Below the pieces are notes generated by a model. It had not been told where the DNA came from. It saw nothing but the letters and a program-made list of their open reading frames with translations, and made no database searches. From Bryobacterales bacterium (GTDB taxonomy: Bacteria; Acidobacteriota; Terriglobia; Bryobacterales; Bryobacteraceae), in contig JAFAQY010000109.1 of NCBI GenBank assembly GCA_019261985.1, forward strand, positions 1-64,000: a stretch of 64,000 nt of DNA, in the 5' to 3' direction. Below, piece after piece: positions 1 to 36,000 of this stretch (position 1 is the first letter of the stretch; the number at the start of each line of letters is the position of its first letter). The position numbers and the translations under genes are program-made.

Positions 1-3000
1 TGTGTCCGCCGGCTGCCGCTTCGTGGTTAGGGGACCGCCGTACACCACCTCGGAGTCCTGCTTGCGCCCGTACATCAACTCTCGCAGGAAGGCTTGCCGT
101 CCGGCAGAAACCTCGATCAGTTCGACACCGGCGGCGCTGAACCGGGCTGCCAGCTCGTTGGAGACCATCCCGCCTTCGGTCTTCCAGGGACCCCAGTTGA
201 ATGAGACGGCGCGGCCCGGCCATTGCGCATTGAGGCTGACCGCCATTTTATTGAGAACTTCGTTTGCGGCCGAGTAGTCGCACTGGCCGCGGTTTCCATA
301 ACGCGCCGCAACTGAGGAGAAAAACACCAGGAACTGTAGGTCCTGGGGCCGGAGAGCGCGTACCAGGGCGAGAGTGCCCGCGATTTTGGGCCGCACCACG
401 CGATCAAAAGACTCGAGCGTCTTGTCGCCGATGAGTTTGTCTTCGATCAGTCCCGCCCCGTGGACCACGCCGTCTATTCGGCCGTACTTCCGATACATGC
501 TCTCGATCAGATTTCCGACAGTTGCGGCGTCGCACACGTCTCCGGAGTGGTACTCGACTTCCGAGCCGAGAGACCGCAACATCGCGAGGTTGTTGCGAAT
601 CTCGCGGTCCATCGTAACGCGCTGCGCAATTCCCTCAATAAAGGCTGGGTTGGGCCGCTGCCCGCCGGTTTGCACGCGATCCATCAGAGCGGCGCGGAGT
701 TGCCGGACGCCGGTGATTCCCGCGATATCCGCGGGCTCCTCGGCTTGGGGCAGTGGCGAACGGCCCAACAACACCAGCCGCGGCTGGAATGCTTGCGCGA
801 GCTCCCTGGCGGTTGCCGCGGTAATTCCGCGCGCGCCGCCGGTAATCAGGACGACGGAGTTATGGTCCAGCTTTAGATTCGAGCTCCTGTCAGTTAAAGG
901 AGATTCCACCGGGCGAAGTGTCTTACGCGATCCGCGCGAGTATCCGACCTCCAAATTGCCATCCCGGTGCAGCAATTCGCCGGCGAGCCCTCGCGCGATG
1001 GTCTGCTCATTTTCGGCCGGCGCGAAGTCAACCGTCTTGGCCGCGACCTCCGGCCACTCACGAGCGACGGTCTTCACGAACCCGGATATCGCTCCGTTTC
1101 CGGGGAAGAATCCGGCCGGTGCGTTAGACCCGAAGCCGAAGGTCCCGCCGAGCTTGGTCGCCGATAGCAAAATTCCGCCGCGGGCGGAGCGAAGATCCTG
1201 CTCCAATCCTTTCGCGAGAAGGAACAGGCTTCTGAGATCTAAAAGCGTGCGCGATTCGATTTCCGCGGTCGCGCCGTATGGGGCGGGAGCGATGGGCAAC
1301 AGGTGAACCAATCCGCCGATCACGCCATGTTTCTCCTTCAGAGACTGCAAGAGAGCGGCGACAGACGCCGCATTGTTGAGATCTGTCCCGGCTTCAGGAG
1401 CATGATCGACCACACAATGCCGGATTCCAAGCTCATTTAAGCGAGAACTAAAGACCGCTGCCACGCTATTGGGATCACGATTCCGATCGTTGGTCACCAG
1501 CAGGAACACGGAACATGGAGAGGGATTCTGCGTCAGCGGAGCGTCGACGACCTCAACCGCAAGCCGCGTAACCGGCCGGGCCGTTTCAGGCTGTGAAGAC
1601 GCACCTTGAGAGTAAGCGGCAGGGGACTCGGAGGTCGAAGCCGCTTGCGTCGCGGGAAGCTCTTCCGCATCGGCAGATTCCGCCGGAGTTCCTCCGCCTG
1701 CCGGTTCGGAAGCCTTGGCCTCTATCCAATCCACGATCGCGCGCAGAGTCTTGAGTTTGTACAGCGTTTCGATCTGCCCTTCAATGGCAAGCCCGGGGAG
1801 CATCGACTCCGATTGCAGCGCGCTGAAGATCTCGACGCGTTTGATGGAATCGACTCCCAGGTCGCCTTCGAGATCGAGATTCACATCCAGGGATTCGGCT
1901 GGATATCCCGTACGTTGGCTGACGAGCTCGAGCAACACCCTGGTGATCTCTTCGCGCGGGAGACGCGGAGACGCTGGAGCCGGCACGGAAGCGGGAACGG
2001 TCACGGGCGGCGGTCCCGCGGAAGCCGCCGCGGCGACGGCCAAGGGCGCAGCGGGTTCGCGCTGAAGCAGAGCGGCAGGCGCGGCCGCGAGCGCAGGTAT
2101 AGGCGCGGGCACGCCCTGGGCGGGAACCGCGCAGGAAGTGGCGGCGGGTACCGCGGTAACGCCGGCCACGGCGGCGGCTTGCGGCTGCAAGCAGGCGAGC
2201 ATGATGTTGCGATGCGTCTCCAGGAACTTATTCATGAGGCGATGATGCCCCTGCATCACCATCTCAAGCTGACTCGCGGGCGGAGATTGGATCGCCGGAG
2301 GCTGGATCAATGGAGACACCGGTGAGGGAGAGTCACCGGTCCCCGCCGATCGGGCTGGTGCGGCAGGAAGGTTCGGCGGGAAGACATTGTTCGCCATAGG
2401 AGGCCCCATAGGAACAGGATTGGTGGACAAAACGTCCTGCGAAGCCGCCGGCGGTTGCTTTTCCGTTTGATCCGATTTAAACAGAACATGCGTACCGGAA
2501 GTTCGCATTTCAAGATTTGCAGGCAGCACCGTCCACGCTGGCCGGAATTTTGCGCCGGGCACGGCTCTGCCGTTGGAGACCACCCACGCGGTCGGAGACA
2601 TTGGCTGAGGCTGCGTGTCTGCGAGCAGCCGCCCCAGATGAAGATGCTTGGTCACCCTGCCTTCAAAAAGGCGGGTGGCATAAAAGGGAACGCCTGCGAC
2701 GGCCAAATGGGCCAAGGCATGAACCAGATGCACCAAGCCACCCCGTCCGGGCTGATCCATGTGAACCGCCACATGGGGTCTTCCGCCCAGGCAGGCTGAA
2801 ACCAAGCCCGTAAGAACTCTGCCTGGTCCGCATTCGACAAAAACCCTGGCCCCGGCCTCGTACATCGCCTGGATCTCGTCCATAAAGCGCACAGGCCTGG
2901 CGAGATGATCCGCCAGGAGTTGCCGTAGCGCGTTTGCGTCACCGGGATGAGGAGCAGCGGTGGTATTCGAATACACCGCAAACCGCTGCGGCTTCAGGTC

Positions 3001-6000
3001 GCACGCTGTCAAGCCGTTTCGCAAGGGCTGCTTCGCCGTTGCGACGAGCGGCGAATGAAACGCGCACGCGACCGCGATAAGCCTGGCCTTAAGGCCCTGC
3101 CCCTTGAGACGCTCGAGGCTCTCCGCAATCCCTTTCTTGGTTCCGGAGATTACGGTCTGCGAAGGCGCGTTCAGATTGGCAATGACAACGCCGGCGATGT
3201 CTTTGATCGCACCGGCCACCTGGGCCTCGCTGGCCTCCACCGCGGCCATGGCGCCGAGTTCGTCCTTGGCGGATTCGACAATCACCCGCCCACGCAGTTC
3301 CGAGATGCGAATCAGCTCCGGAAGCGTAAACGCCCCCGCCGCGGCGAGGGCGGCGAACTCGCCATAGCTGTGTCCGCATGCAAACTGCGGACAAACTCCA
3401 AAATCCGTTAGCAGGCGAAACATCGCAAGGTCGGCCGCGCCAAGCGCGGGTTGTGCGATGTTGGTCTGCCTGAGGGCGTTTTCGTTGACATCCTTGTCCT
3501 GTTCGGAAAACACCGGAGGCGGGAAGATGAAACTCGATAAGGGCTTGCCCAGTTCCAGACCGAGACTCCGATCGGCTTCCTCAAATGCTGCTCGAACCTC
3601 AGGAAAGGCCACGGCAAGATCGTTCATCATGCCGACGTACTGCGAGCCCTGGCCGGGAAAGGTGAATGCGATTTTTCCGGCCGGAGAGCCGGCATCAGGC
3701 GAGAAATAGATGCCCTTCGGATCCTTGTACTCCTTGCGCGAATCGATCGCCGAACGAGCCGATTCGAGCTTCGCCGTAAGATCTTCCAGAGACTGCGCTA
3801 CCACCGCCAGGCAGCATGGGCCGGCAGCTCTTCCGTGTTCCCAATAGACGGCAGACGCCAGATCGACGAGCGACGGGCGCGCGCCATGTTGGATGGCGCT
3901 AACGATGGAGCCAATCGCCGAGGAGAGCTCTTTCGGCGAGCCCTCTCTCCACAGGAACAGCTCGGCTGGCCAGTCGCGAAGCGAGGCTTCTTCGGGATCG
4001 CTTCCGTCGAGCGGGCGAAATTCCTCGGCGACGACGTGAAAATTGGTTCCTCCGAAGCCAAAGGCGCTGATGCCCGCCCGGCGGGGCGCCCCGTCCAGCC
4101 TCTGGACCCAGGGACGGGTCTCCGAGTTGATATACAGAGGGCTGTTATCCAAACCGGCCTTCGCGTTCGGTTTCGTAACACCTAACGTGGAGGGAAGCAC
4201 GCGGTGACGCAGCGCCATAGTAGCCTTGATCACACCCGCGAATCCGGCCGCGCATTTTGCGTGCCCGATCATGCTCTTGACGGAGCCCAGAGCTACGGTC
4301 TGATGCGCCGAGCCCTTTTCTTTGAAAAACGCCGTCAGCGCTTCGGCTTCGGTTCGATCTCCCACCGCGGTTCCGGTGCCGTGGGCTTCCAGCAATCCGA
4401 CGGTTTCCGGATCAGCGCCGGCCTTTTTATAGGCTCGTTCCAACGCTCGCGTTTGTCCGATTGCGCGCGGCGCGGTGAGCCCTTTGTCTTTTCCGTCGCT
4501 GGAAGCGCCGACGGACTTAATGACTCCGTAAATCTTGTCGCCGTCAAGCAGCGCGTCGTTCAGGCGCTTGAGCACGGCGCAGGCAACCCCTTCGCTGATC
4601 ACAATCCCGTCCGCCGTCTCGTCGAAAACACGCGGCTGACCGGTGGGCGATAACGCCTGCGTCTTGCTGAAACAAAGATAGGTAAATGGCGACTGCATCA
4701 TGTCGGACGCCGCTACCACCGCTACATCGCTGGAGCGTGTTTCCAACTCCGTTACCCCATGGCGCAGAGCGGCCAGACCGGTGGCGCAGGCGGCATCCAC
4801 GATGAAGTTTGTGCCGCCGAAATCGAAGCGATTGGCGACTCTTCCCGCTACGACGTTAAGGAGCAACCCGGCGAACGAGTCTTCGGTCCACTCCGGCAGA
4901 TCCTTGGACATGCGCTCGATGAGATCGGTGGAATCCGCAAGCGTACCGCCGGCTTGATCCACATAATACGGCAGCATGGATCGAATGCCATAGCCCAGTC
5001 CGAGTTCGCCTACGCCACCACCCGTGCCGACGACGCAACAGGTGTTCTCGCGGTTGAACCGCCGCGCTCCGTATCCGGCGTCCCAGAGGGCCCGGTGCAC
5101 CATCTCGAGAGTGACCAGCTGCAAGGGATCGATCGAGGGAAGCGAAGACGGCGGCATGCCGAACTTCATGGGATCGACCACAACGTCATCGATGAACCCT
5201 CCCCATCTGGAATAGATCTTGTCCTTGGCGCGCCGGTCGGCGTTGAAGTACACGTCGCTATCGAAGCGCTCCTTGGGAATCTCGCGCACGGTGTAGCGCT
5301 TGTTGACAATGTTTTGCCAGTACTGGCGCACGTCGTTGCTCTGCGGGAATACGCAGGACAGACCGACAATGGCAATATCGGAATCGGACGGAGCGGCGCC
5401 TTGGAAGTATTGTTCGAGCAGCGCGGCGGCACGCTCTTTGAGTAAAGTACCGCTGGAGCCGACATCGCGGTGAAGCTGTTCTATCGTGCAGACCTCGCCG
5501 CGAAGAGCGGCAACCTGCCCGATCATGAACATGCCTTCGCGCCGAACTGTACCGGCATCGGCGAGTTGATAGACCGCATGGCCGTCCGGACCAGTGTCTC
5601 GGACGATGCCTTTTGACGCAATCCGGAGGCGGCCCAGATTCAGCTTTTCCAGCTCCTCGCGGATCTCTTCTTTGGGCTTGCCCTCCCGCGTGAGGCGCTG
5701 CTTCAAGTCCGCGAAGGCGACGGCGAACTGGCTGCCGGCGCACCGGGTGGCGTGTCCCACTCCGGATTCGACCAGGAGCGTATCTTGGCAAGCGAGCGCT
5801 TCCTCCTGGAAGGTCGCGGTAATTGCGCCGCTTGAAACGATTTCGCGCGTAAACAGATAACCAGTCCCGATCACTGCGCCCACCCGCACGCCGCGCTCGG
5901 CAAGGGGAGCCGCGATGGCGCTCAGCATCGCGCCCGAGCGCGCATCGTGCACGCCGCCGGCGAAGATGATGTGGTAGTCCTCCGGTTTTCCCGCACGCGC

Positions 6001-7458
6001 GGTTTGCAAATACTCCAGAATCACGCGCGTCATCTGTTCCCACAAAACGAAACTCGTGCGCGGCCCCACGTGGCCGCCGCATTCGCGGCCCTCGAAGATC
6101 AGCCGGCGCGAGCCCTGCTCGAGAAAATTACGAGCCAGCGCGGGCGAGGGCGCGTGCAGATAAACTTGTATGCCTTCGCTCTCCATCTGCTTCGCCATAT
6201 CGGGACGGCCACCCGCGATAATCAGGAAAGAAGGCTTGCATTTCCTGATTTCGGCCAACTGCTCGTCGCGGAGCTCCTCAGGAACGAAACCGAGGATGCC
6301 GACACCCCAAGGCATCCTTCCCAACTTGTTCCTGGTCTCGTCGAGCAGCTTAGCGACCTCGGGCCCGCGCATCAGCGCGAAGGCCAGGTACGGAACCGCC
6401 CCGCCTTTCGCGACGGCGAGCGCGAAATCGGCATTGTCGCTTACGCGAGTCATGGGACCCTGGAAAATTGGGAAGCGCGTTCCCTGAGACTTCGCCAAGG
6501 GAGCATTCTCCCCAAGGGGGTTGAGCCGCGAGGCCACACGAACTTGCCTGGACGCCTCCGCGCGGATGGCCCGGCAAATCCCCTTCACGTTGTGGAATTC
6601 CTCGGCGAGGTCTTTGGCAAAGGCGGCATCCTGACCGATGAGAAGAAGTTCCTGGTTCCGAACGCGATCGTTCACCAACTGCTTCCACTGCAGGAGTCTT
6701 TCCGGGCTCGCGCCGCCGTCGACTCCGTGGCTTTCCTCAAATTTCTTCAAATCGAAATACGCCGTTTCACCGACGCGTGAATAGGCGCGGAAGCGGATTT
6801 TAGAATCCTGTCCGAGAATGGCGGTTTCGCTCCCGTCCATGCGGGCAATGCGCTCTCTCACAGCCTCTGGAAGCGTCGATTCCTCGGCCAACGCAAGCTG
6901 CCAGTCGAGCGCCACTCCGGCGGCGCCCGCCGCGAGGCAAGCGGATGCGGTGTGCAGCCCTATGCCGCCGCGCGCATATACGGGCACCCGGACTCTCGGC
7001 AGGATTCGTTGCAGCAGAATGAACGTCGTTTCTTCCGCCACCTTCCCGCCGCTCTCGCTACCCTTGGCAAACAAGCCTTCCGCTCCGCACTCCACGGCAC
7101 GCAAAGCTTCGCCTAGAGTCGTAATTTCAACGAGGGGCTCGAGGCCCGCGGTTCTGCACCACGCGATCGAATCCGCGAGAGATTCGCACGCCGGGTCGGT
7201 GAGGACGACGCCCTTTAACCCGCGCCCCATCACTGGAGAAAGGAGTGAACGCACGGTTTCGCCGTGAGGAGATCGTACCGAAACCGCGAAGCCCACGCCC
7301 GATTCGTTTTGACACAGATATTTCAGCGCAGCCGCGGCCTGCTCCGCTCGGATCGCGTCCAATGCCAAAACTCCGGTACATCCCGCCCTACCAGCCGCAG
7401 CCAGAAGCGCGGATTGATCGAAGCTCTCCGGTGAAAATATGAATTGACGCCAAGACAT
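1..7458 (-). CDS. Pfa/Hgl-like type I polyketide/fatty-acid synthase (C-terminus outside window)
   Basis: Uninterrupted minus-strand frame of 2,486 codons from ATG at 7458 (MSWRQF) to the window edge; no stop is seen, so it is partial. Domains read in order: an FMN/nitronate-monooxygenase-like barrel (about residues 1-300, GSESGGKVAEE); a second such barrel (about 325-680, FPIFQGPM, GRECGGHVG); ketosynthase (about 693-1120, Cys891 in DAACATG, His1026 in EAHGTGT, His1066 in MIGHAKC, triad complete); acyltransferase (about 1264-1560, Ser1364 in GHSYGE); a Pro/Ala-rich linker; acyl carrier protein (Ser1871 in LGVDSIKRVEI, the PUFA-synthase style); ketoreductase (GGARGITAA near 2204, Tyr2395 in QCDYSAAN). 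It should assemble and reduce an acyl chain on its own ACP; the product is unknown. The ACP style and the FMN enoyl-reductase-like domains point to Pfa-type secondary-lipid synthases rather than antibiotic modules. A divergent two-component system lies upstream and an exporter operon nearby. Confidence 0.92.
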   Translation of the reverse strand, partial: MSWRQFIFSPESFDQSALLAAAGRAGCTGVLALDAIRAEQAAAALKYLCQNESGVGFAVSVRSPHGETVRSLLSPVMGRGLKGVVLTDPACESLADSIAWCRTAGLEPLVEITTLGEALRAVECGAEGLFAKGSESGGKVAEETTFILLQRILPRVRVPVYARGGIGLHTASACLAAGAAGVALDWQLALAEESTLPEAVRERIARMDGSETAILGQDSKIRFRAYSRVGETAYFDLKKFEESHGVDGGASPERLLQWKQLVNDRVRNQELLLIGQDAAFAKDLAEEFHNVKGICRAIRAEASRQVRVASRLNPLGENAPLAKSQGTRFPIFQGPMTRVSDNADFALAVAKGGAVPYLAFALMRGPEVAKLLDETRNKLGRMPWGVGILGFVPEELRDEQLAEIRKCKPSFLIIAGGRPDMAKQMESEGIQVYLHAPSPALARNFLEQGSRRLIFEGRECGGHVGPRTSFVLWEQMTRVILEYLQTARAGKPEDYHIIFAGGVHDARSGAMLSAIAAPLAERGVRVGAVIGTGYLFTREIVSSGAITATFQEEALACQDTLLVESGVGHATRCAGSQFAVAFADLKQRLTREGKPKEEIREELEKLNLGRLRIASKGIVRDTGPDGHAVYQLADAGTVRREGMFMIGQVAALRGEVCTIEQLHRDVGSSGTLLKERAAALLEQYFQGAAPSDSDIAIVGLSCVFPQSNDVRQYWQNIVNKRYTVREIPKERFDSDVYFNADRRAKDKIYSRWGGFIDDVVVDPMKFGMPPSSLPSIDPLQLVTLEMVHRALWDAGYGARRFNRENTCCVVGTGGGVGELGLGYGIRSMLPYYVDQAGGTLADSTDLIERMSKDLPEWTEDSFAGLLLNVVAGRVANRFDFGGTNFIVDAACATGLAALRHGVTELETRSSDVAVVAASDMMQSPFTYLCFSKTQALSPTGQPRVFDETADGIVISEGVACAVLKRLNDALLDGDKIYGVIKSVGASSDGKDKGLTAPRAIGQTRALERAYKKAGADPETVGLLEAHGTGTAVGDRTEAEALTAFFKEKGSAHQTVALGSVKSMIGHAKCAAGFAGVIKATMALRHRVLPSTLGVTKPNAKAGLDNSPLYINSETRPWVQRLDGAPRRAGISAFGFGGTNFHVVAEEFRPLDGSDPEEASLRDWPAELFLWREGSPKELSSAIGSIVSAIQHGARPSLVDLASAVYWEHGRAAGPCCLAVVAQSLEDLTAKLESARSAIDSRKEYKDPKGIYFSPDAGSPAGKIAFTFPGQGSQYVGMMNDLAVAFPEVRAAFEEADRSLGLELGKPLSSFIFPPPVFSEQDKDVNENALRQTNIAQPALGAADLAMFRLLTDFGVCPQFACGHSYGEFAALAAAGAFTLPELIRISELRGRVIVESAKDELGAMAAVEASEAQVAGAIKDIAGVVIANLNAPSQTVISGTKKGIAESLERLKGQGLKARLIAVACAFHSPLVATAKQPLRNGLTACDLKPQRFAVYSNTTAAPHPGDANALRQLLADHLARPVRFMDEIQAMYEAGARVFVECGPGRVLTGLVSACLGGRPHVAVHMDQPGRGGLVHLVHALAHLAVAGVPFYATRLFEGRVTKHLHLGRLLADTQPQPMSPTAWVVSNGRAVPGAKFRPAWTVLPANLEMRTSGTHVLFKSDQTEKQPPAASQDVLSTNPVPMGPPMANNVFPPNLPAAPARSAGTGDSPSPVSPLIQPPAIQSPPASQLEMVMQGHHRLMNKFLETHRNIMLACLQPQAAAVAGVTAVPAATSCAVPAQGVPAPIPALAAAPAALLQREPAAPLAVAAAASAGPPPVTVPASVPAPASPRLPREEITRVLLELVSQRTGYPAESLDVNLDLEGDLGVDSIKRVEIFSALQSESMLPGLAIEGQIETLYKLKTLRAIVDWIEAKASEPAGGGTPAESADAEELPATQAASTSESPAAYSQGASSQPETARPVTRLAVEVVDAPLTQNPSPCSVFLLVTNDRNRDPNSVAAVFSSRLNELGIRHCVVDHAPEAGTDLNNAASVAALLQSLKEKHGVIGGLVHLLPIAPAPYGATAEIESRTLLDLRSLFLLAKGLEQDLRSARGGILLSATKLGGTFGFGSNAPAGFFPGNGAISGFVKTVAREWPEVAAKTVDFAPAENEQTIARGLAGELLHRDGNLEVGYSRGSRKTLRPVESPLTDRSSNLKLDHNSVVLITGGARGITAATARELAQAFQPRLVLLGRSPLPQAEEPADIAGITGVRQLRAALMDRVQTGGQRPNPAFIEGIAQRVTMDREIRNNLAMLRSLGSEVEYHSGDVCDAATVGNLIESMYRKYGRIDGVVHGAGLIEDKLIGDKTLESFDRVVRPKIAGTLALVRALRPQDLQFLVFFSSVAARYGNRGQCDYSAANEVLNKMAVSLNAQWPGRAVSFNWGPWKTEGGMVSNELAARFSAAGVELIEVSAGRQAFLRELMYGRKQDSEVVYGGPLTTKRQPADT

Positions 7459-8107: not shown

Positions 8108-8854
8108 ATGCGCGATCCCATAGATAAACCTGTAATACTTGTCGTCGACGACGATGTCGAACTGACGGAGATGCTCGGCGAGTATCTTGAAGGGTTCACG
8201 GTGGCAACCGCTCACGACGGCAACACCGGATTGAAGAAGGCTCTCGGGGAGGTCTACTCTTTGGTCGTGCTCGACGTCATGCTGCCGCGAATGAACGGCT
8301 TTGAAGTTCTACGCCGTCTGCGAGCCACGTCCCAGGTTCCGGTGCTCATGCTGACCGCTCGCGGAGATTCGGTCGACCGCATCGTCGGATTGCAGGGCGG
8401 CGCCGACGATTATCTGCCGAAACCCTTTAACCCCGAGGAACTGCTTGCGCGCATGAATGCCATCCTCCGGCGGGTCTCCCCACTTTCGTCAGGACCGGAG
8501 GTGCTGACGATTGGCGACGTCAGTCTGGATGGCGGCGCGCGGACCGTGCGGCGCGGTGGGGCCCCGGTGGAAATGACAGCAGCCGAGTTCGATCTATTGC
8601 GTGTCCTGATGCGTTCCGCGGGCCGCGCCGTCGACCGGGAAAGTCTCCTTCACGAAGTGTTGGGCCGCCACTTCTCCAGTTCTTATCGCAGCATCGACAA
8701 CCATATCAGCAACCTCCGCCGCAAGCTCGGCCCGGCGCTGGATGGAAGGGAACGCATCCGCGCGATCCGCAACACCGGCTACACCTACACTATCCCGGAG
8801 GCCGCCACGGGACCGGAGTCAACGCATCCGGAACCGGGATCTGATGTGAAATGA
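8108..8854 (+). CDS. OmpR-family response regulator (CpxR-like)
   Basis: A 248-residue DNA-binding regulator of a two-component pair. The receiver domain (about residues 8-120) has the acidic pocket VVDDD at 12-16, phospho-acceptor Asp56 in VLDVMLP, the MLTARG segment and the conserved Lys in YLPKPF. A winged-helix output domain follows (about 145-235, with EFDLLRVLM, RSIDNHISNLRRKL and IRNTGYTY, all typical of OmpR/PhoB). It overlaps the kinase gene by four bases (ATGA), so the two are translationally coupled. The Shine-Dalgarno sequence is weak. Likely targets are the flanking synthase, exporter or its own promoter, but only position supports that. Confidence 0.93.
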   Translation: MRDPIDKPVILVVDDDVELTEMLGEYLEGFTVATAHDGNTGLKKALGEVYSLVVLDVMLPRMNGFEVLRRLRATSQVPVLMLTARGDSVDRIVGLQGGADDYLPKPFNPEELLARMNAILRRVSPLSSGPEVLTIGDVSLDGGARTVRRGGAPVEMTAAEFDLLRVLMRSAGRAVDRESLLHEVLGRHFSSSYRSIDNHISNLRRKLGPALDGRERIRAIRNTGYTYTIPEAATGPESTHPEPGSDVK

Positions 8855-10212
8855 GAAGCCTGTTTCTGAGAATCTTCCTTTGGTTTTGCGCCGGGTCGCT
8901 CCTGCTGGCGGCCGTTATCGTGGGCGCGCTTCTGTTCACAACACCGGATGCCCTATCCACAGCCTGGCGCCGCGTCGGACGAGGGGCAGTCGTTTCCGCA
9001 GCCCGAGTGGCCGCGGAGACGTACGAGAGTTCAGGTTCGTCGGGCCTTTCTATTTACATGCAGAAACTAGCCGCGGACACGGGTCTTCACCCTCAATTAT
9101 TCGACTCCTCCGGACGCGATCTGAACGGAAGCCCTTCGCCGGACATGGTTCGCGATCTTGCCAGTTTGAGTTCGCCACCGCAAGACCGGCTCACATTGCT
9201 TGCGCCACCGGATACGGCCGCGGTGCGGGTTCGAGGTCCCTCCGGGTCCCTTTATTCTTTTCTCACGACACTTCCCCGGCGAACTGACCGCATCGTGTGG
9301 TCTCCAAGATTAATTCTTTCGTTCGTCTTATTTGGTTGCCTGGTGTGCTATCTGCTGGCCCGCTCTTTGACGGCGCCGATGGTCCGTCTTCGCGCATTAA
9401 CATCCCGGTTTTCCGGAGGGGATCTTGCAACTCGGGTTACTGAAGCGTCCCTGTTGCGCCGGCGGGACGAGATTGGCGGCATGGCGCGGGATTTCAATGA
9501 TATGGCAATGCGGATCGAGACGCTAATGCGCGGTCAAAAGCGGCTGCTGGCGGATGTGTCCCACGAACTTCGATCGCCGTTGACGCGCATGCGCCTGTCG
9601 GTGGGCTTGCTGCGGCGCAGCGTGGGCGCGGAGGGATCGACCTCGGTGAGCCGCATAGAACGAGACATCGAACGCCTGGACAGCCTGATCCAGCAACTGC
9701 TGGTGCTCTCGCGCCTCGAATGCGCGGCCACGCCGCCACCCATGGAGAAACTGGATCTGGCGCAGATTGTCACCGAGATTGTCGCCGACGCGGCCTTCGA
9801 GGCGCAATCCATGAACCGCGGCGTCCGCCTGGTGGAGTGCTGCCCTTCGGTCGTCCTGGGGGAGCAGAGATTTCTCCACGGCGCAGTCGAAAACGTGATT
9901 CGCAACGCGGTGCGGTACACGAAGCCCGAAACGGAGGTGCAGGTGCGTCTGTTCCGGCCGGAAGGCGCGGGCCGCGCGGTGATCACGGTCGTCGACTCGG
10001 GACCAGGCGTGCTCGAAAGTGAACTCACCCACATATTCGAGCCTTTCTATCGCGTCGGCGAAGCGCGCGAGCGTGAAAGCGGCGGCGTGGGCCTGGGTTT
10101 GGCCATTACGCGGCAAGTGGTAAACCTGCACGGTGGTTCGGTTCAGGCCTTCAATCAACCCGGCGGCGGGCTGGAAGTTCAGATTGCACTGACGCTCGCC
10201 GACGCAGCGTGA
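8851..10212 (+). CDS. Sensor histidine kinase (CpxA-like)
   Basis: A 453-residue inner-membrane kinase, partner of the upstream regulator. It has TM1 (about residues 5-30), a periplasmic sensor region of roughly 115 residues with no recognised fold, TM2 (about 150-172), HAMP (about 172-225), the dimerisation/phosphotransfer helix with His238 in DVSHELRSPLTRMR, and a HATPase domain with the N box near 351 (VIRNAVRY), G1 DSGPGV and G2 GGVGLGLAI. The overall plan matches CpxA-type envelope-stress sensors, which suits a neighbourhood of envelope export genes. The signal sensed cannot be deduced. Confidence 0.93.
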   Translation: MRSLFLRIFLWFCAGSLLLAAVIVGALLFTTPDALSTAWRRVGRGAVVSAARVAAETYESSGSSGLSIYMQKLAADTGLHPQLFDSSGRDLNGSPSPDMVRDLASLSSPPQDRLTLLAPPDTAAVRVRGPSGSLYSFLTTLPRRTDRIVWSPRLILSFVLFGCLVCYLLARSLTAPMVRLRALTSRFSGGDLATRVTEASLLRRRDEIGGMARDFNDMAMRIETLMRGQKRLLADVSHELRSPLTRMRLSVGLLRRSVGAEGSTSVSRIERDIERLDSLIQQLLVLSRLECAATPPPMEKLDLAQIVTEIVADAAFEAQSMNRGVRLVECCPSVVLGEQRFLHGAVENVIRNAVRYTKPETEVQVRLFRPEGAGRAVITVVDSGPGVLESELTHIFEPFYRVGEARERESGGVGLGLAITRQVVNLHGGSVQAFNQPGGGLEVQIALTLADAA

Positions 10213-10617: not shown

Positions 10618-12024
10618 TCAGTTCCAACCCCCGCCCAGGGCGCGGTAGAGAGCGATCAAATCTTCGGTAACACTTTCCTCGCTACCGGCTAGTTGGGTTG
10701 TGGCCGCGATGACGGATTGCTCGGCATCAAGAACCGGATTGTAATCCTGAATGCCGGCGTCGAATAGTTCGCGCGCAAGAGCGAGCTTCCGCTGGCTGGT
10801 TCCGGCCATCTGCTCGAGGACTGCCTTACGATCCCTTTCGTGGCTATATTTCGCCAGCGCATCCTCTACTTCCTGAAGCGCCTGTAGAATCGCTTGTTGG
10901 TATTGCAAATCCGCCTGCTGGCGCTCCGCGCTACGCGCTTGAATATCGGAGCGAATCTTCCCGGCGGCAAACAGCGGGATGCTGACACTGGGCCCGACGG
11001 AGAAAAAACCGCCGGAGTTGCCGAGCTTCAGCGCCGAAATCTGCTGATCGCGGCCACCGAAGTTGCCCGTGAAGGAGAATTGGGGAAACCGTTCCGCGCG
11101 CGCGGCGGCCGTACGAGCTTCAGCCGCGTCTACTTCTTGTTGGGCCTTGCGAACGTCGGGTCTGCGCCGCACCAACTCCTCGGGCGATCCAAGCGGCACA
11201 TCGGAAGGTCCATCGGGTACGGCTCTTGGGGGTATCAATTCACCGATCAATGCACTTGGCTCCTCGCCTGCGAGCACGGCCAATTGGTGGACATGGAGTT
11301 CGATTGAGGCCTCCATTCCCGGAATTAGCGACTCGGCGTTTGCCAGATCGAGTTGCAGGGGCGTCACGTCGGCATCGGTGGCGAGACCCGCCGCCAGCCT
11401 GGAGTCGACCAGCCGGAGACTATCGCGGCGAAACTCTACGCCTTTACGCGCGATTGCAAGTTGTGCCTGCAAGCCTCTCAATTGGACGTAATAGCTCGCC
11501 ACATCTCCGAATAGCGTGACCATTACGGCCCGCCGGTCCTCCTCGGCGACTCCGACCTCGGAGACGGCCGCTTTGGCGATGTTCCGGTTCCCACCGAAAA
11601 AATTGCGCGCCCAAGTCACTCCAAGACCGAATTGCCGGTTGTCGACTGAGCCGCCGTTGCCGGCGAGAAGCTTCTGCAGGCCAGGCTCGGTGCTCGTAGA
11701 AGCCGGTCCACTGCTGTGCTTCAAGGTGTTCGTCTGCGATAGCATCGGCAGCCCGGTGGATTTCGCCGCGCCAACGGCTGCGCGCGCTTGCTGAATACGG
11801 GCTACGGCCATCTGCAAATTAAGATTGGACCGCAGCGTCCGGTCGATCAGCGAACTCAGCTCCGGATCGTTGAATTTCTTCCACCAATTCGCCAGATCGG
11901 CGGGAGCTTCCGGCAGCTCCTGCCCGAAACTGCCCGGAAGGATGAAGTTCGCTGGCTTGGGCTCCGGGCCGGCTGCGTAACCAGCTACCGGCAACACCGC
12001 AAGAAGTATGTATGCACGTTTCAT
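10618..12024 (-). CDS. TolC/NodT-family outer membrane efflux protein
   Basis: A 468-residue outer membrane channel of tripartite exporters. It has a signal peptide (MKRAYILLAVLPVAGYAAG), two tandem helical repeats of the OEP family (about residues 60-250 and 280-465, with LNLQMAVARIQQARAAVG and RRPDVRKAQQEVDAAEARTAAARAE), and the usual family length. Its start overlaps the stop of the adaptor gene (ATGA). As the last gene of the permease-ATPase-adaptor-channel operon it would carry the substrate across the outer membrane. No RND pump is present, so it should work with the ABC pump upstream. Confidence 0.93.
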   Translation of the reverse strand: MKRAYILLAVLPVAGYAAGPEPKPANFILPGSFGQELPEAPADLANWWKKFNDPELSSLIDRTLRSNLNLQMAVARIQQARAAVGAAKSTGLPMLSQTNTLKHSSGPASTSTEPGLQKLLAGNGGSVDNRQFGLGVTWARNFFGGNRNIAKAAVSEVGVAEEDRRAVMVTLFGDVASYYVQLRGLQAQLAIARKGVEFRRDSLRLVDSRLAAGLATDADVTPLQLDLANAESLIPGMEASIELHVHQLAVLAGEEPSALIGELIPPRAVPDGPSDVPLGSPEELVRRRPDVRKAQQEVDAAEARTAAARAERFPQFSFTGNFGGRDQQISALKLGNSGGFFSVGPSVSIPLFAAGKIRSDIQARSAERQQADLQYQQAILQALQEVEDALAKYSHERDRKAVLEQMAGTSQRKLALARELFDAGIQDYNPVLDAEQSVIAATTQLAGSEESVTEDLIALYRALGGGWN

Positions 12025-13184
12025 CTGTCCTCCGCAGCGCTGAGTTCTGACCGCGAGTCCGCTTCCACAAATACATCCATTTGCTGGCCCGCAAATAGGG
12101 GGAGGCGCTTGCGATCAAATTGATAGAGCGCCTGCAGGACGCGCGTGTCAACGCGTTCCTGGCTCTCGCCAGTTAACGACTTCTTCGGCAGTACGTACGG
12201 CTCGAACCGAATAAACCTCAGGTCCACACTGATGGATTTGTTGCCGCGAGCGTAGGCCTTCGCGGGGGCGTCCGGGCGGACCCGCCAGGCCTCACTTTCG
12301 TCGATATCCACGCGCACCCGAAGATGGTCTGTCTCGCCAAACAGAATCAGCGGCGATGAAGGATTAACGGGTGCGAATTCTCCCGCATGCACTTTCACCT
12401 GCAAGCACTCACCGCTAAAGGGCGCCCGTACCGTCAGCCGATCCAGGTTGCTCTGGGTGGATGCCACCTGGGCTTCCGCCTGGCGCACGTCCGCACGAGC
12501 CACCTCGAGATCCGGCTCGGCGGCTCCCGCGTTGAGCAGGGCCAAATTGGCCTGGGCAGTTTTCAACGCAGCTTCCGCTTCCGCAATCCCGTAGCGGCGG
12601 CGGTTCATCTCATCCGCGCTCACGGCTCGTTTGTCGGAAAGGCTTTCGCGTAGCGCCAACTGCGCTCGCAGATCCGCAAGATTGGCCGCCGCATTCTGGG
12701 CTTGCGCCTCCGCGGGAGCAATATCTACCGGACGCGGCGGACTGGCCAGCTTCATCAGGCGAGCTCGGGAGGATGCAAGCAGGGATTCCTGTATCGCCAT
12801 TTGTGCCGCGACCGCCCGGTCGTCCAACTGAAATAGGGGACTTCCCTCCTTTACCCGATCGCCGGCTTTGACGAACACCTTGGTTACTACGCCGGCCTCG
12901 GGGGAACCAATCGCGACATTCTCGCTCTCGGATTCGATTAGACCCGACCCCGACACGAATGACGGAAAGGGCGCACCCGCAGGCTCGGCGACCGGCTGAG
13001 CCACCGGAACCGGGTGGCTGTCCGCCCAGACGACGTACAGTGCGAATGCAAAGCCGCACATCGCGATGAGAGCCATTCGCGTCGTAGAGCCGCGACGAAC
13101 TTTATTCGCCACCTGTCTTGGCGGAATAGTAGATTCGCCGCCCCGCGGGGGATTTGTCCTGAGCGTACGAAAAGTAACTTTCAT
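12021..13184 (-). CDS. HlyD/DevB-family periplasmic adaptor
   Basis: A 387-residue membrane fusion protein. A single N-terminal TM (about residues 36-57) is followed by a lipoyl half-motif, a long alpha-hairpin coiled coil (about 120-260, with repeated AQAQNAAANLADLRAQLALRE-like heptads), and a beta-barrel domain (VRAPFSGECLQVKVHAGE). It links the inner-membrane ABC pump to the TolC-like channel. Its ATG overlaps the ATPase stop codon (ATGA), and its own stop overlaps the channel gene, so production is coupled. DevB of cyanobacteria is the closest functional analogue I can name; substrate specificity cannot be read from the sequence. Confidence 0.92.
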   Translation of the reverse strand: MKVTFRTLRTNPPRGGESTIPPRQVANKVRRGSTTRMALIAMCGFAFALYVVWADSHPVPVAQPVAEPAGAPFPSFVSGSGLIESESENVAIGSPEAGVVTKVFVKAGDRVKEGSPLFQLDDRAVAAQMAIQESLLASSRARLMKLASPPRPVDIAPAEAQAQNAAANLADLRAQLALRESLSDKRAVSADEMNRRRYGIAEAEAALKTAQANLALLNAGAAEPDLEVARADVRQAEAQVASTQSNLDRLTVRAPFSGECLQVKVHAGEFAPVNPSSPLILFGETDHLRVRVDIDESEAWRVRPDAPAKAYARGNKSISVDLRFIRFEPYVLPKKSLTGESQERVDTRVLQALYQFDRKRLPLFAGQQMDVFVEADSRSELSAAEDR

Positions 13185-13900
13185 GATCCGAGTCCTCCCA
13201 CGTTAGAATCAACGATTTCTGAAATACGCCCATCATCCATGCGTGCGATCCGATCCGCGTAGTGAAATATCCGCGAGTCGTGCGTCACCACGATCAGAGC
13301 ACGCCCGCCGGTTCGCCCCAGCGAGCGCAACAAGTCCATCACGTCCCTGCCGATATCGGCGTCCAAAGCGCTGGTTGGCTCGTCGCACACCACCAGCTTG
13401 GGCTCGTGCACCAGGGCCCGGGCGATTGCGACCCGCTGTTGCTGGCCGCCGGAAAGTTGCGACGGCACGTCGTGAAGGCGCATGCCGAGGCCGACGCGTT
13501 CAAGCATGGCACAGGCGCGTTGAAACGCTTCCCTCCGCGGCACGCGGTTGATCAACAATGGCACCGCGACGTTCTCCGCGGCGCTGAGCGCTGGAATGAG
13601 GTTGAAGGCCTGGAAAACAAATCCGATATGACGCCCGCGATAAAAAGTCTTCGCTCCCTCCGGCAGATCGGACCATTTCTGGTCGAACAGGCGGCACTCT
13701 CCGGAATCCTGATTCAGGATCCCGGTGATGACCGAAATGAGAGTCGTCTTTCCGCATCCGGAAGGGCCAACCAGCATTAACAACTCCCCCGCACGCACTT
13801 CAAGGTCGATGCCGCGCAAAGCTCGTATGACGGTATCTCCCGTATGGAAGCTCTTGGAGAGGCCGCGGCATCGGACTGCGGTGTGATCTTGGACCTGCAC
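13181..13900 (-). CDS. ABC exporter ATPase (DevA/MacB/LolD-like)
   Basis: The nucleotide-binding subunit of the exporter. Walker A GPSGCGKTT, signature LSGGQQQRVAIARAL, Walker B LVVCDEP and the H-loop VVTHD are all intact, so it should hydrolyse ATP. I prefer GTG at 13900 (MQVQDHTAVRCRGL), preceded by AAGAGG at about 5 bases. The longer TTG start at 13942 would overlap the permease by 29 bases and has no ribosome binding site. It is sandwiched between the permease gene and the adaptor gene in a tight operon. Confidence 0.93.
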   Translation of the reverse strand: MQVQDHTAVRCRGLSKSFHTGDTVIRALRGIDLEVRAGELLMLVGPSGCGKTTLISVITGILNQDSGECRLFDQKWSDLPEGAKTFYRGRHIGFVFQAFNLIPALSAAENVAVPLLINRVPRREAFQRACAMLERVGLGMRLHDVPSQLSGGQQQRVAIARALVHEPKLVVCDEPTSALDADIGRDVMDLLRSLGRTGGRALIVVTHDSRIFHYADRIARMDDGRISEIVDSNVGGLGS

Positions 13901-13913
13901 GGGAACCTCTTGC

Positions 13914-15083
13914 TTAACTGCGGAATACGATTGCCGGCTCAAGGTCCAGCACCTTGCGGACGCTGATCGCCGCGCTTCCCGCGCAAATCAGAAGCACCGC
14001 CGCTGCGCTGCCGGCCAGGATCTGCCAAGTGGTCTCCAGAGAGACCAGCGTGTTGCGCATCAGATACTCGCACAAAGCGGAAGCCCCGATGCCGATGCCA
14101 TATCCGATCAAGCCCACCACCGCGGCCTGCATCACGATCATTAGAAGGAGCGTAAAATTCGAAGCGCCCATGGCTTTCAGCACGCCGAAATAACGGAGAT
14201 TGTCCTGGGTGAAACTGTAAAAGGCCTGCCCTGACACCGCGGTCCCGACGATCAGGCCAAGCAAAGCGGCCAAGCCCGTACTGAGCGGAATGGCGGTGTT
14301 CCGGAAATAATACACCAACGTCCTGCGAATCAACTCGGCACGCGTATATGCGCCGAGCCCGGTCTGCTCCCGGATGCGCCGGCAGACCGCGGAAAGGTCC
14401 ACACCCGGCGCGGTCTTCACGAGGACGTAGGAGAGCGTATTCCGCTCTGCTGGAGAGAACCCGAGGGCGCGCGAATAGGTCGTGTAAATCACCGGCTGGC
14501 TCAGTAGGCTGCGCTCCACTTTGGCCAGTCCCACGACGATGGCGCGGTGGTCATTGAGTTCCATCGAATCGCCCACGCGCAACGGCCTTGGTTTGCCGTT
14601 CTCCGCCGCGGTAATCCCAAAACGGCGCTGGGCACCCTCGGCGTCGACGATCACGGCATCGGTTTGGCGCAAATCCGCCAAGCTCCCTTGGACCATTGAT
14701 GGCGGACCTCCGGCGAGCGTAGCATCGTCCAGACCCAATACCAATGAGTTTTGAAACGCGCCGTTGCTCAATCGCGCCTTCAGCATTGCATAAGACATCG
14801 GCACGGCCCACTTCACGCCGGCAACGCTGCGGACCCGGTACAACTCCGTATCCTGAATGTTTTTGACGTCATCGACAAAAAGAGCCTTTGGATCCATGAC
14901 CCAAATGTCCGCGATGCCGGCGTTCCGAATCGTCGATACGGTGCGCGTCATCATTCCAACGAAGAGAGCGGCCGAGAGCGCCATGAGAAGCGAGGAAAAG
15001 CTGAGGCCGAAGATCATCGCAAAATACTTGCCTTTTTCACCGACCAGCATGCTGAATGAGATCGAACGCATGACTACACGCAT
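13914..15083 (-). CDS. ABC exporter permease (DevC/FtsX-MacB type)
   Basis: An inner-membrane subunit of about 389 residues with four membrane segments: one near the N-terminus (about residues 18-40), then a large periplasmic domain (IADIWVMDPKALFVDDV), then three C-terminal helices (about 265-290, 315-345 and 355-380). This is the MacB/FtsX/DevC plan. The frame extends upstream to 15359, but that part is polar, runs into the divergent hydrolase gene and lacks family character. ATG 15083 (MRVVMRS) gives the usual DevC length of about 385. No clear Shine-Dalgarno sequence is seen, so the exact start is uncertain. First gene of the exporter operon. Confidence 0.88.
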   Translation of the reverse strand: MRVVMRSISFSMLVGEKGKYFAMIFGLSFSSLLMALSAALFVGMMTRTVSTIRNAGIADIWVMDPKALFVDDVKNIQDTELYRVRSVAGVKWAVPMSYAMLKARLSNGAFQNSLVLGLDDATLAGGPPSMVQGSLADLRQTDAVIVDAEGAQRRFGITAAENGKPRPLRVGDSMELNDHRAIVVGLAKVERSLLSQPVIYTTYSRALGFSPAERNTLSYVLVKTAPGVDLSAVCRRIREQTGLGAYTRAELIRRTLVYYFRNTAIPLSTGLAALLGLIVGTAVSGQAFYSFTQDNLRYFGVLKAMGASNFTLLLMIVMQAAVVGLIGYGIGIGASALCEYLMRNTLVSLETTWQILAGSAAAVLLICAGSAAISVRKVLDLEPAIVFRS

Positions 15084-15237
15084 GCTACCCGGAGGAACAT
15101 CTACTGGCTTACGAGAAATGTCGGGAAGTCGTAAAGATTTGTCATTGCGATGGGCTTTATCGTAACTCCGCTCGTTTTCCAGCGCGTCTATTGTCAGAGT
15201 GCATCGCGATATACACCAGGCAAGGAGAAGAACCACA

Positions 15238-17040
15238 GTGACGTACGCTCGGCGTGCACTGCTTTGGTTCCTGGCGTCGACCGGATTCGTTTTTCCAGCC
15301 GCCGCGGCGCCACCGACCTCATGCGGCACCCTCAACGCGGGATTACAGATACTGACCAATGTTCCGGCCCTTCCGGGCGGGTCAGATTATGCCGGGGCTT
15401 TAAAGATGGCCGTGTGGTACCCCACCACGGCGCAGGCGTTGCCTTACACTTACTCCGGACCGCGGCCAGACCTATCGGGGCTCGCCGCATTGAATGCTCC
15501 ACCAGCCACATGCAGCCAGTTTCCGCTGATCGTTTTTTCTCACGGGTGGTCGGGGTGCGGTACACAGTCCGTATACTTGACCGAACAATTGGCGCGTCTT
15601 GGCTACATCGTTGCCGCCCCGGATCATAACGACCATGGCTGTAGCGTGGATGGAACTTCGAGCAGTCTCTTGCAGGTGTTCTTTGATTTTCCCCTTACAA
15701 AATTCGGCGACGCGGCAACCTGGACGGACCAGACCGCTTTTTATCGTAATGCCGATGTGGAGGCAGTCCTGAATTACATGCTCAACAATTGGAGCGGCCG
15801 GTCGAGCATCAACCCCAACCAGATCGTGATGTCGGGACATTCATTTGGCGGTTACACGGCGTTCGCCAAGATTGGCGGATGGGCTTCTTGGCTAAATCCG
15901 AAGTTCAAGGCGGGTATCTTATACTCTCCCTACATTCAGGCCTTTCAGTCACAGAAGCCAAACACCATGTCGTCCCCAAACGTCCCACAAATTTTTATGA
16001 CCGGCGGGCCGCAGGACAAGGCCATCGAGCCTTGGGTCATGGGGCCCCAGCCGTGCAGCGGAGTGAATTCGGAGAACTGCGGGCAGGCAGGGGCTTTCGA
16101 GCAAGTGCAGGCGCTCAAATACTATGGGGAACTGCCCGGCTCCGGACAGGAAGCCAGTCATTTCGCCTTCACCAACTCTATTTGCACGAATTTAGGAGAC
16201 CTGACAGTTCAATCTTGCCTGGCTCAGGTACCCAATGCTCAGACCGTCGTGAATTATACGCAAGATTTCCTCGATCACGTCTTGTTCGGCCAAAAGCCGC
16301 AGAGACTCTGGAGTACCGGACCGGAATTCGCTACCTATTGGCAGACAGCCGGAGTGCCTGCTTTCAGCTACCAGGCGGGCGCGGGGAGCGCTCCAGACCA
16401 GATCGTAACGGCGATAGGAGAGCAATTGACAACCGACGTTCCGTCGGCGGCTAACGGCGCTCCGATGATGCCTCAGTCGATCGAGCAAACCACGGTCACC
16501 GTCACCGACAGCTTGCGGATTTCGCGCCCCGCAAACCTCTACTACGTTTCCCCGACCCAACTCAATATTGTGGTACCGGACGGCACCAGCGCCGGCCAGG
16601 CGACGATCGCGGTCGAGGTCGCCGGAAGCCTGGTATCGTCAGGGCCGCTCACGATTAACTCCGGCGCCCCATCATTATTAATGGTTCCGGGCAATGTGCT
16701 GGCGGGATGGGCCGTGAACAGCACCAGCCAGTACATCCCGATCTGGGCTTTATCAGGCGCGCTCCCGCTGGACGTGAGTGGAGGGGGGACTTACCTGGTG
16801 GGGCTCGGTTCGGGGTTGCGCGGCGGCGCCACTCTCGGGTCGACCATTTCGATAGGCAACACAGTGTTCGACGGCATTAATGGACCGCGGCTGGTTATCG
16901 TTCCCTCGCCTTCCTATCAAGGGGTCGACCAATTTGCAATCGGCCCCCTACCCGCGTCTCTGAGTGGAGCCGGAACCGTGAACGTGGTGATCTCGATTGG
17001 CGGCCGGTCAAGCAATGCCGTGGTGGTCTCCATCCAATAA
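15238..17040 (+). CDS. Secreted alpha/beta hydrolase with Solibacter-type C-terminal domain
   Basis: About 600 residues. GTG 15238 is chosen because AAGGAGAAG sits about 8-10 bases upstream and a signal peptide follows directly (MTYARRALLWFLASTG, cleaved near AAAAPP). The N-terminal part (to about 380) is an alpha/beta hydrolase of the chlorophyllase/PAF-acetylhydrolase/polyester-hydrolase type: oxyanion-side VFSHGWSG, nucleophile Ser in SGHSFGGY, C-terminal His in EASHFAF. The last 200 residues (YYVSPTQLNIVVP, VGLGSGLRGG, GVDQFAIGPLP, VVISIGGRSSNAV) match my memory of the TIGR03437 Solibacter C-terminal domain, an Ig-like tail common on secreted proteins of this group. Substrate unknown; ester cleavage is inferred. 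Confidence 0.88.
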   Translation: MTYARRALLWFLASTGFVFPAAAAPPTSCGTLNAGLQILTNVPALPGGSDYAGALKMAVWYPTTAQALPYTYSGPRPDLSGLAALNAPPATCSQFPLIVFSHGWSGCGTQSVYLTEQLARLGYIVAAPDHNDHGCSVDGTSSSLLQVFFDFPLTKFGDAATWTDQTAFYRNADVEAVLNYMLNNWSGRSSINPNQIVMSGHSFGGYTAFAKIGGWASWLNPKFKAGILYSPYIQAFQSQKPNTMSSPNVPQIFMTGGPQDKAIEPWVMGPQPCSGVNSENCGQAGAFEQVQALKYYGELPGSGQEASHFAFTNSICTNLGDLTVQSCLAQVPNAQTVVNYTQDFLDHVLFGQKPQRLWSTGPEFATYWQTAGVPAFSYQAGAGSAPDQIVTAIGEQLTTDVPSAANGAPMMPQSIEQTTVTVTDSLRISRPANLYYVSPTQLNIVVPDGTSAGQATIAVEVAGSLVSSGPLTINSGAPSLLMVPGNVLAGWAVNSTSQYIPIWALSGALPLDVSGGGTYLVGLGSGLRGGATLGSTISIGNTVFDGINGPRLVIVPSPSYQGVDQFAIGPLPASLSGAGTVNVVISIGGRSSNAVVVSIQ

Positions 17041-34176: not shown

Positions 34177-35859
<1,683 letters not shown>

Positions 35860-36000
35860 CCACTAACCGCGCGCGCGAGCTCTTAAGCCCCGTTGTCTTC
35901 GAGAAAGCGCGACCGCCGTTCGCAACAAGTATAGAACACGAGCTACATTCCTCATGCAAGGGTACCTCATCATAATCGCGCAAAATCAAGTGCGGCTGTG

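Follow-up and report, generated by a model that had tools for sequence, protein, structure and literature searches.

A PfaA-like synthase gene with tandem FabK/NMO-like barrels fused ahead of the ketosynthase in a Bryobacterales genome

Pfa synthases of types A and B, as set out in the available text of Shulse and Allen (2011; PMC3098273), carry tandem acyl carrier proteins (ACPs) and have their enoyl reductase (ER) on a separate protein, PfaD. The accessible parts of the same paper list a Type P cluster for A. vinelandii and Beijerinckia indica, with B. indica entered alongside the A. vinelandii ars cluster in its Table 1, and admit relatives with a single ACP if the other features fit. In A. 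vinelandii, as far as the excerpted description goes, ArsA makes the long acyl chain, ArsB and ArsC attach the phenolic head and ArsD is a PPTase. In Ottowia, Aquimarina and Flavobacterium, pfaD and pfaA are reported as fused genes in the excerpted text of PMC13291983. The available sections of PMC13311796 describe TIM-barrel ERs as acting as homodimers, report that thraustochytrid ERb is insoluble without ERc, and state that only thraustochytrids have a PUFA synthase with two TIM-barrel ERs.

The gene described here lies at the low end of the window, that is, the whole stretch of 64,000 nucleotides analysed, from a Bryobacterales bacterium. On the minus strand, a strand that the original prediction left unstated, a single open frame with an ATG start leads from 7458 to 1, and the unbroken frame of at least 2,486 codons given in that prediction is indeed present. 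Because the window begins at base 1 of contig C76 (genome of 6.49 Mb in 138 contigs), the frame runs off the contig edge without a stop codon there, leaving only the 5' part of the gene. From stop to stop the frame measures 2,490 aa, the ATG being preceded by just four codons, and the start position aligns with the starts of relatives. The GC content of the gene is 61.7% as compared with 59.3% in the remaining window, and its GC3 of 0.70 is similar to that of eight other frames in the window; horizontal transfer, judged by this comparable composition, gave no signal.

Pfam matches arrange the protein in the order barrel-barrel-KS-AT-ACP-KR, with two nitronate monooxygenase (NMO) stretches and each domain above its cut-off (Table 1). 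The active-site motifs of the ketosynthase (KS), the acyltransferase (AT), the ACP (Ser) and the ketoreductase (KR) are all intact. Domains and motifs together bear out the proposal that two FMN-type barrels are fused before a Pfa-like KS-AT-ACP-KR. The NCBIfam whole-protein model for PfaA (TIGR02813) scored 1162.5 bits, above its cut-off of 1010.1. Instead of the multiple tandem ACPs by which Shulse and Allen recognize a Pfa synthase, the window protein has one ACP motif, as had been said of its visible part, and its ER-like barrels are fused in frame, unlike the separate PfaD protein of Pfa types A and B. A single ACP motif also occurs in 10 of the 20 relatives described below, two occur in G059 and B. 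indica and four in G459; the strict ACP pattern had zero matches in seven of the 20, among which G254, G522 and G441 are cut or broken. Membership in a Type R cluster, which consists of KS-MAT-CLF-ACP(3-6)-KR plus a PPTase, was rejected, as the window protein has one KS, no second KS/CLF-like match, one ACP and fused barrels.

Table 1. Positions of the synthase gene, its domains and neighbouring features (window coordinates; the last row lies at loci of relatives)
Feature	Coordinates	Strand	Basis
Giant secondary-lipid-synthase gene, 5' part (2,486 codons)	1..7458	-	Open frame, Pfam domains
Barrel 1, residues 2-234; FabK/NMO-like fold without motif I and catalytic His	6757..7455	-	Profiles, alignment
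Lys139 in barrel 1, at the FabK catalytic-His position	7042..7044	-	Alignment
Barrel 2, residues 321-680; FabK/NMO-like enoyl reductase, QGPM and ECGGHVGP intact	5419..6498	-	Profiles, motifs
Predicted catalytic His463 of barrel 2	6070..6072	-	Alignment/motif
Ketosynthase, residues 693-1094; Cys891-His1026-His1066 present	4177..5382	-	Pfam and motifs
Acyltransferase, residues 1265-1553; GHSYGE and CAFH motifs	2800..3666	-	Pfam and motifs
Single acyl carrier protein, residues 1841-1912; DLGVDSIKR	1723..1938	-	Pfam and motif
Ketoreductase, residues 2202-2426	181..855	-	Pfam and motifs
Divergent two-component system: response regulator with Trans_reg_C and HAMP histidine kinase	8108..10212	+	
Exporter cassette: outer-membrane factor, HlyD adaptor, ABC ATPase, MacB/FtsX permease	10618..15359	-	
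Type I phosphodiesterase-family genes	L019 3090-4985; L034 1972-3822; L065 358-2109; L036 3-446		

Tandem barrels precede a KS in 20 further proteins, and in each of them the barrels continue into KS sequence; therefore the order is not an assembly join. A check on related genomes had been called for, and the recurrence found there excludes an assembly artefact. With the window's own protein, 21 sequences were aligned. Sixteen of the other 20 are single frames of 2,313-2,990 aa, some of these lengths being stop-to-stop or with over-long starts. The synthases of G254 and G441 are cut by short contigs (3.9 and 4.5 kb), and the frame breaks between AT and KR in G447 and inside the KS in G522 (L069 8185; L093 7984-8034), where either sequence errors or broken genes are at hand. 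When the first 690 residues were used as the query against 41 genomes (the genome itself and 40 relatives), one further strong match was found, at 53% identity and in a frame of 2,793 aa, in G032, a genome from another family within the same taxonomic order. The gene is patchy, since none of the 22 same-genus relatives gave a strong match to these residues; the remaining matches were short and weak. A sample of 396 genomes from the phylum gave 9 with a match at E<=1e-20, the genome itself among them, and 369 genomes from the class of a Competibacteraceae genome (Gammaproteobacteria) gave 7 at E<=1e-40. The Competibacteraceae synthase itself starts with its KS, and only partial barrel matches occur in that genome, which is a MAG. 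Among 72,556 plasmid records, five carried the barrel pair at a single locus over at least 80% of its length: two from Streptomyces (the second was left out of the 21 aligned proteins) and one each from Methylosinus, B. indica and a Rhodobacteraceae bacterium. The tandem-barrel order occurs in at least three phyla. All of these searches used both barrels together, so they would pass over single PfaD-type ER fusions.

Both N-terminal regions match NMO/FabK profiles, each separately, a check that had been proposed at the outset. The best model for either barrel, as for the barrels of G032, B. indica, Streptomyces and Rhodobacteraceae, is FabK (TIGR03151), on which the window barrels score 53 and 70 bits, well under the equivalog cut-off of 453.1. 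Against solved FabK chains, a profile of 13 barrel-1 sequences aligned over positions 14-229 of 236 (E 2e-25) and a profile of 13 barrel-2 sequences over positions 8-265 of 368 (E 4e-34). The Pfam family is named for NMO, NMO and FabK share a fold, and 3bo9, a putative nitroalkan dioxygenase, ranks third for barrel 1 and second for barrel 2 among the solved matches, all of which would suit NMO-like oxidases with a modifying instead of a reducing action on the lipid. However, FabK/enoyl-ACP reductase chains are the top match of both profiles and make up the rest of the first six for barrel 2, and the barrels sit inside a reducing synthase, which leaves an oxidase role very improbable.

The PfaD model (TIGR02814) had no match at E<=0.01 in the window barrels or in the G032 pair and none at E<=0.001 in the barrels of B. 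indica, Streptomyces and Rhodobacteraceae, while the distant members G334 and G061 scored 27 and 30 bits on it against a cut-off of 449. As a positive control, the ER gene beside the PfaA-like gene of Azospirillum lipoferum scored 608 bits on the same model. The mean identity of barrel 2 is 26% to three FabKs and 19% to the Azospirillum PfaD. A PfaD origin of the window barrels was rejected on these grounds. The original prediction had held that PfaD was captured into the chain by fusion and then duplicated. Two barrels in a Pfa-like synthase would be in keeping with it, as would the fused pfaD-pfaA genes in the available text of PMC13291983, but in view of the missing PfaD match, the FabK best model and the control we find this scarcely credible.

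The two barrels differ sharply in the residues that matter, the choice of which follows section 2.5 of PMC13311796 in its available form. In the joint alignment, the catalytic His of motif III is found in all 21 copies of barrel 2 and in one of 21 copies of barrel 1 (that of G147). The Met of motif I is likewise found in 21 of 21 copies of barrel 2, as compared with none of 19 copies of barrel 1, where two copies are gapped and the column depends on a single alignment. The other 20 barrel-1 copies have K, R, W, F, Q, S, L or E at the His position. The named references (three FabKs, two NMOs and one PfaD) retain both His and Met, the combination that marks the FabK/NMO family and that is present in barrel 2 and lacking in barrel 1. 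Mean identity among the copies is 0.317 for barrel 1 and 0.493 for barrel 2, and it is lower for barrel 1 in all 153 pairs formed by 18 proteins, from which Methylosinus, G459 and G441 were dropped for a partial barrel 1. The first barrel had been predicted to be the more degenerate, and this is strongly supported. Ten columns are nevertheless invariant in the 13 aligned barrel-1 copies, including G133, E135, G138, G178 and G181, and G164/G165 are retained in at least 90% of them. In its faster divergence and its loss of His and Met, set against the invariant columns, barrel 1 follows the pattern of a pseudo-enzyme that has been retained. Each of the 21 proteins combines such a decayed barrel with an intact FabK-type site in cis. 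The invariant E135, G178 and G181, the largely kept G164/G165 and the His of G147 could also be expected of a second working site with altered chemistry that still binds FMN or the acyl chain. Given a motif-I Met in none of 19 copies, a His in one of 21 and a variable residue in the other 20, we consider such a site unlikely.

Barrel 1 and barrel 2 are 14-23% identical, and their profiles match each other with an E value of 2e-15. In the ER tree the barrel-1 copies form one clade (0.96) and the barrel-2 copies another (0.98), each of which includes G334 and G061. The KS of G334 and G061 falls far outside those of the other tandem-barrel synthases, which implies that the barrel pair is older than the KS split or has moved as a unit. 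Barrel 1 possibly arose by duplication of one captured reductase; the trees are single FastTree runs with long branches and several unnamed references, reference L011 having been dropped for length. Tandem-barrel synthases of a distant KS lineage (HATST motif), with a dehydratase (DH) tail and a separate PPTase gene, are located at L039 9654-17327 and L040 3789-11786. At somewhat less than even odds, we suggest a widespread class of bacterial lipid megasynthases in which a tandem pseudo-dimer in one chain has taken the place of the homodimeric enoyl reductase; an active FabK-type barrel would be permanently paired with a conserved dead one, and the pair would be older than the split of two distant KS lineages.

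What follows the KR varies among the relatives. A C-terminal DH was found by Pfam in G032, G059, G379, G334 and G061, and G745, G459 and G760 have a homologous tail, which makes 8 of 17 relatives examined at this end. No such tail was found in G417, G072, G147, B. indica and Methylosinus, or in Streptomyces, Rhodobacteraceae, G570 and G447. The claim of a single-chain synthase holds for the fused barrels, but a second synthase gene lies nearby in all 15 relatives with enough flank (G334 and G061 left out), five of which (G745, G570, G459, G760 and G447) are missing from the KS tree. A DH part is recognizable in this second gene in 14 of the 15; in G760 the contig ends and leaves only the KS start. 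The partner has the form KS-AT-DH in eight relatives (G032, G059, G379, G417, G072, Streptomyces, G745 and G459), that of an ArsD-like DH-PPTase in B. indica, Methylosinus and G570, and an AT-DH form, lacking a KS match or lying a few kb off, in G147, Rhodobacteraceae and G447. A PPTase domain was detected by Pfam in two of the five partners scanned, those of G417 and G072. G334 and G061 have no second synthase gene and have a PPTase gene instead. The similarity of the G379 partner goes on beyond its stop (L035 14292-19618), owing to a sequence error or a broken gene. A type I phosphodiesterase-family gene, possibly encoding a head-group enzyme, is found near the synthase pair in four relatives (Table 1).

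In the window's own assembly, the G032 tail as query found nothing, and with the G032 partner as query the matches were the window itself and three other frames, two of them free and KS-like and one weak and AT-like, none being a partner. Since the tail query picks up G059 at 33% identity, its miss here means that the tail is absent from the assembly or too divergent. Two PPTase-family frames, of 233 and 127 aa, are present in the genome.

The window KS and that of G032 group together (support 0.998), and their set also includes G379, G059 and G417. This set is joined next by G147, Rhodobacteraceae and Competibacteraceae and then, weakly (0.23), by Beijerinckia, Methylosinus, Streptomyces and G072, and all of these KSs group with the PfaA-like ones of Azospirillum, Persicobacter and S. 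globosus (0.997). The operon of B. indica consists of the synthase, two genes whose annotation names a 3-oxoacyl-ACP synthase III C-terminal domain, and a PPTase protein, and it fits the Type P cluster. We infer that the two middle genes encode type III PKSs, because of this fit and of the 24-27% identity of their products to a PF02797 protein of the window's own genome. The latter (C93:42611-43027) is a lone type III PKS that sits mid-contig elsewhere, which rules it out as a continuation of the locus. The window protein could be a true ArsA-type (Type P) enzyme that passes its acyl chain to type III PKSs for phenolic lipids, seeing that the Beijerinckia and Methylosinus synthases adjoin genes read as type III PKSs together with the DH-PPTase protein, and that B. 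indica stands with the ars cluster in the accessible Table 1 of PMC3098273. The window KS, however, groups with G032, G379, G059 and G417, whose neighbour is a KS-AT-DH gene and whose searched stretches hold no type III PKS match, and the only PF02797 protein found in the genome, that on C93, lies elsewhere and is 24-27% identical to the B. indica pair. We assign the Type P reading a low probability.

The reading we prefer, with a probability of roughly 65%, is an iterative secondary-lipid synthase of the PfaA/ArsA kind with a FabK-type ER in the chain and a conserved pseudo-reductase as its partner. In its favor, the KS falls in a group that takes in PfaA-like synthases as well as those of Beijerinckia and Methylosinus, next to which lie genes interpreted here as type III PKSs. 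Against it, barrel 1 of G147 keeps the His, the KS set that holds the window has the weak inner node of 0.23, neither tail nor partner was found in the window's own assembly with the G032 queries, and G334 and G061 share the barrels and have a distant KS and no second synthase gene. The architecture, the motifs and their losses, the recurrence and the partner gene of relatives are all read from sequence. A single-sequence structure prediction gave a pLDDT of 44 and was not used as evidence.

The chemistry, the role of barrel 1 and a long-chain lipid product, as we infer them, would be the following. The AT would load malonyl units onto the ACP, the KS would condense them and the KR would reduce the beta-keto group. 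Dehydration would fall to a DH supplied by the missing C-terminus, by the missing partner protein or by both. Barrel 2 would then saturate the double bond in the same chain by ping-pong hydride transfer via FMN and His463. Barrel 1, which keeps the fold and several loop glycines, is most likely a non-catalytic partner of barrel 2, and it may replace the second subunit of the dimer formed by free FabK and PfaD. Such dimerisation in cis is proposed by analogy with PfaD-type domains.

Near the synthase gene lie a two-component system, which possibly regulates it, and an exporter cassette (Table 1); both may belong to the lipid pathway. Similar permease-ATPase-adaptor sets adjoin the synthases of Beijerinckia and Methylosinus and are found on the same contigs as those of G417 and G061. 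The nearness of the exporter alone means little: with 111 matches, MacB domains occur in this genome about once every 58 kb, and the window cassette is 27-47% identical to that of B. indica. Export of the synthase lipid by this cassette is therefore a weak proposal, and the cassette was set aside as functional evidence. So many MacB domains suggest an acidobacterium. Elsewhere in the window, a frame of 1,227 aa (20875-24558, minus strand) has no Pfam match at E<=1e-5, and a protein of 877 aa (56990-59623, plus strand) has an N-terminal PIG-L de-N-acetylase domain and no other Pfam match at E<=1e-5. A sigma-70 factor with regions 1.1-4 (34177-37767, minus strand) lies beside DNA primase, as in a chromosome.

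The locus defines a class of secondary-lipid synthases with a FabK-type reductase in cis, found in the window's own phylum, in Gamma- and Alphaproteobacteria and in Streptomyces. With this class it can be asked in a simple way why a dead reductase domain persists, and it predicts which megasynthases have a saturating step of their own. Concrete products to look for are suggested by what relatives carry, namely the partner gene, the PPTase and the possible exporter.

Compared with known systems, the synthase on B. indica plasmid pBIND02 (WP_012382816) shares the order of tandem barrels-KS-AT-ACP-KR, with 44% identity to the window protein over 81% of the barrel query and 46% over KS-AT. It differs in its two ACP motifs, in the lack of a matched DH tail and in the two adjoining genes read as type III PKSs. 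The PfaA/PfaD PUFA synthases share the KS-AT-ACP-KR order and the PfaA model above its cut-off, whereas their tandem ACPs and separate PfaD contrast with the one ACP and the fused FabK-type ER of the window protein. Both barrels match FabK (TIGR03151), and barrel 2 keeps its motifs I and III, but FabK is a free enzyme and the window barrels are fused. In the fused pfaDA genes an ER is also joined to a PfaA homologue; there it is PfaD that is fused to PfaA, and the available text of PMC13291983 makes no mention of a tandem or inactive barrel. Thraustochytrid ERb and ERc, according to the excerpted sections of PMC13311796, likewise give two TIM-barrel ERs in one synthase, one of which is not stable alone. 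They are close to PfaD, reside on two chains and both keep the catalytic His, whereas the window barrels are FabK-type, stand in tandem in one chain and include a barrel 1 without the His. Should the suggested class prove true, its tandem pseudo-dimer would have arisen separately as the bacterial equivalent of thraustochytrid ERb and ERc.
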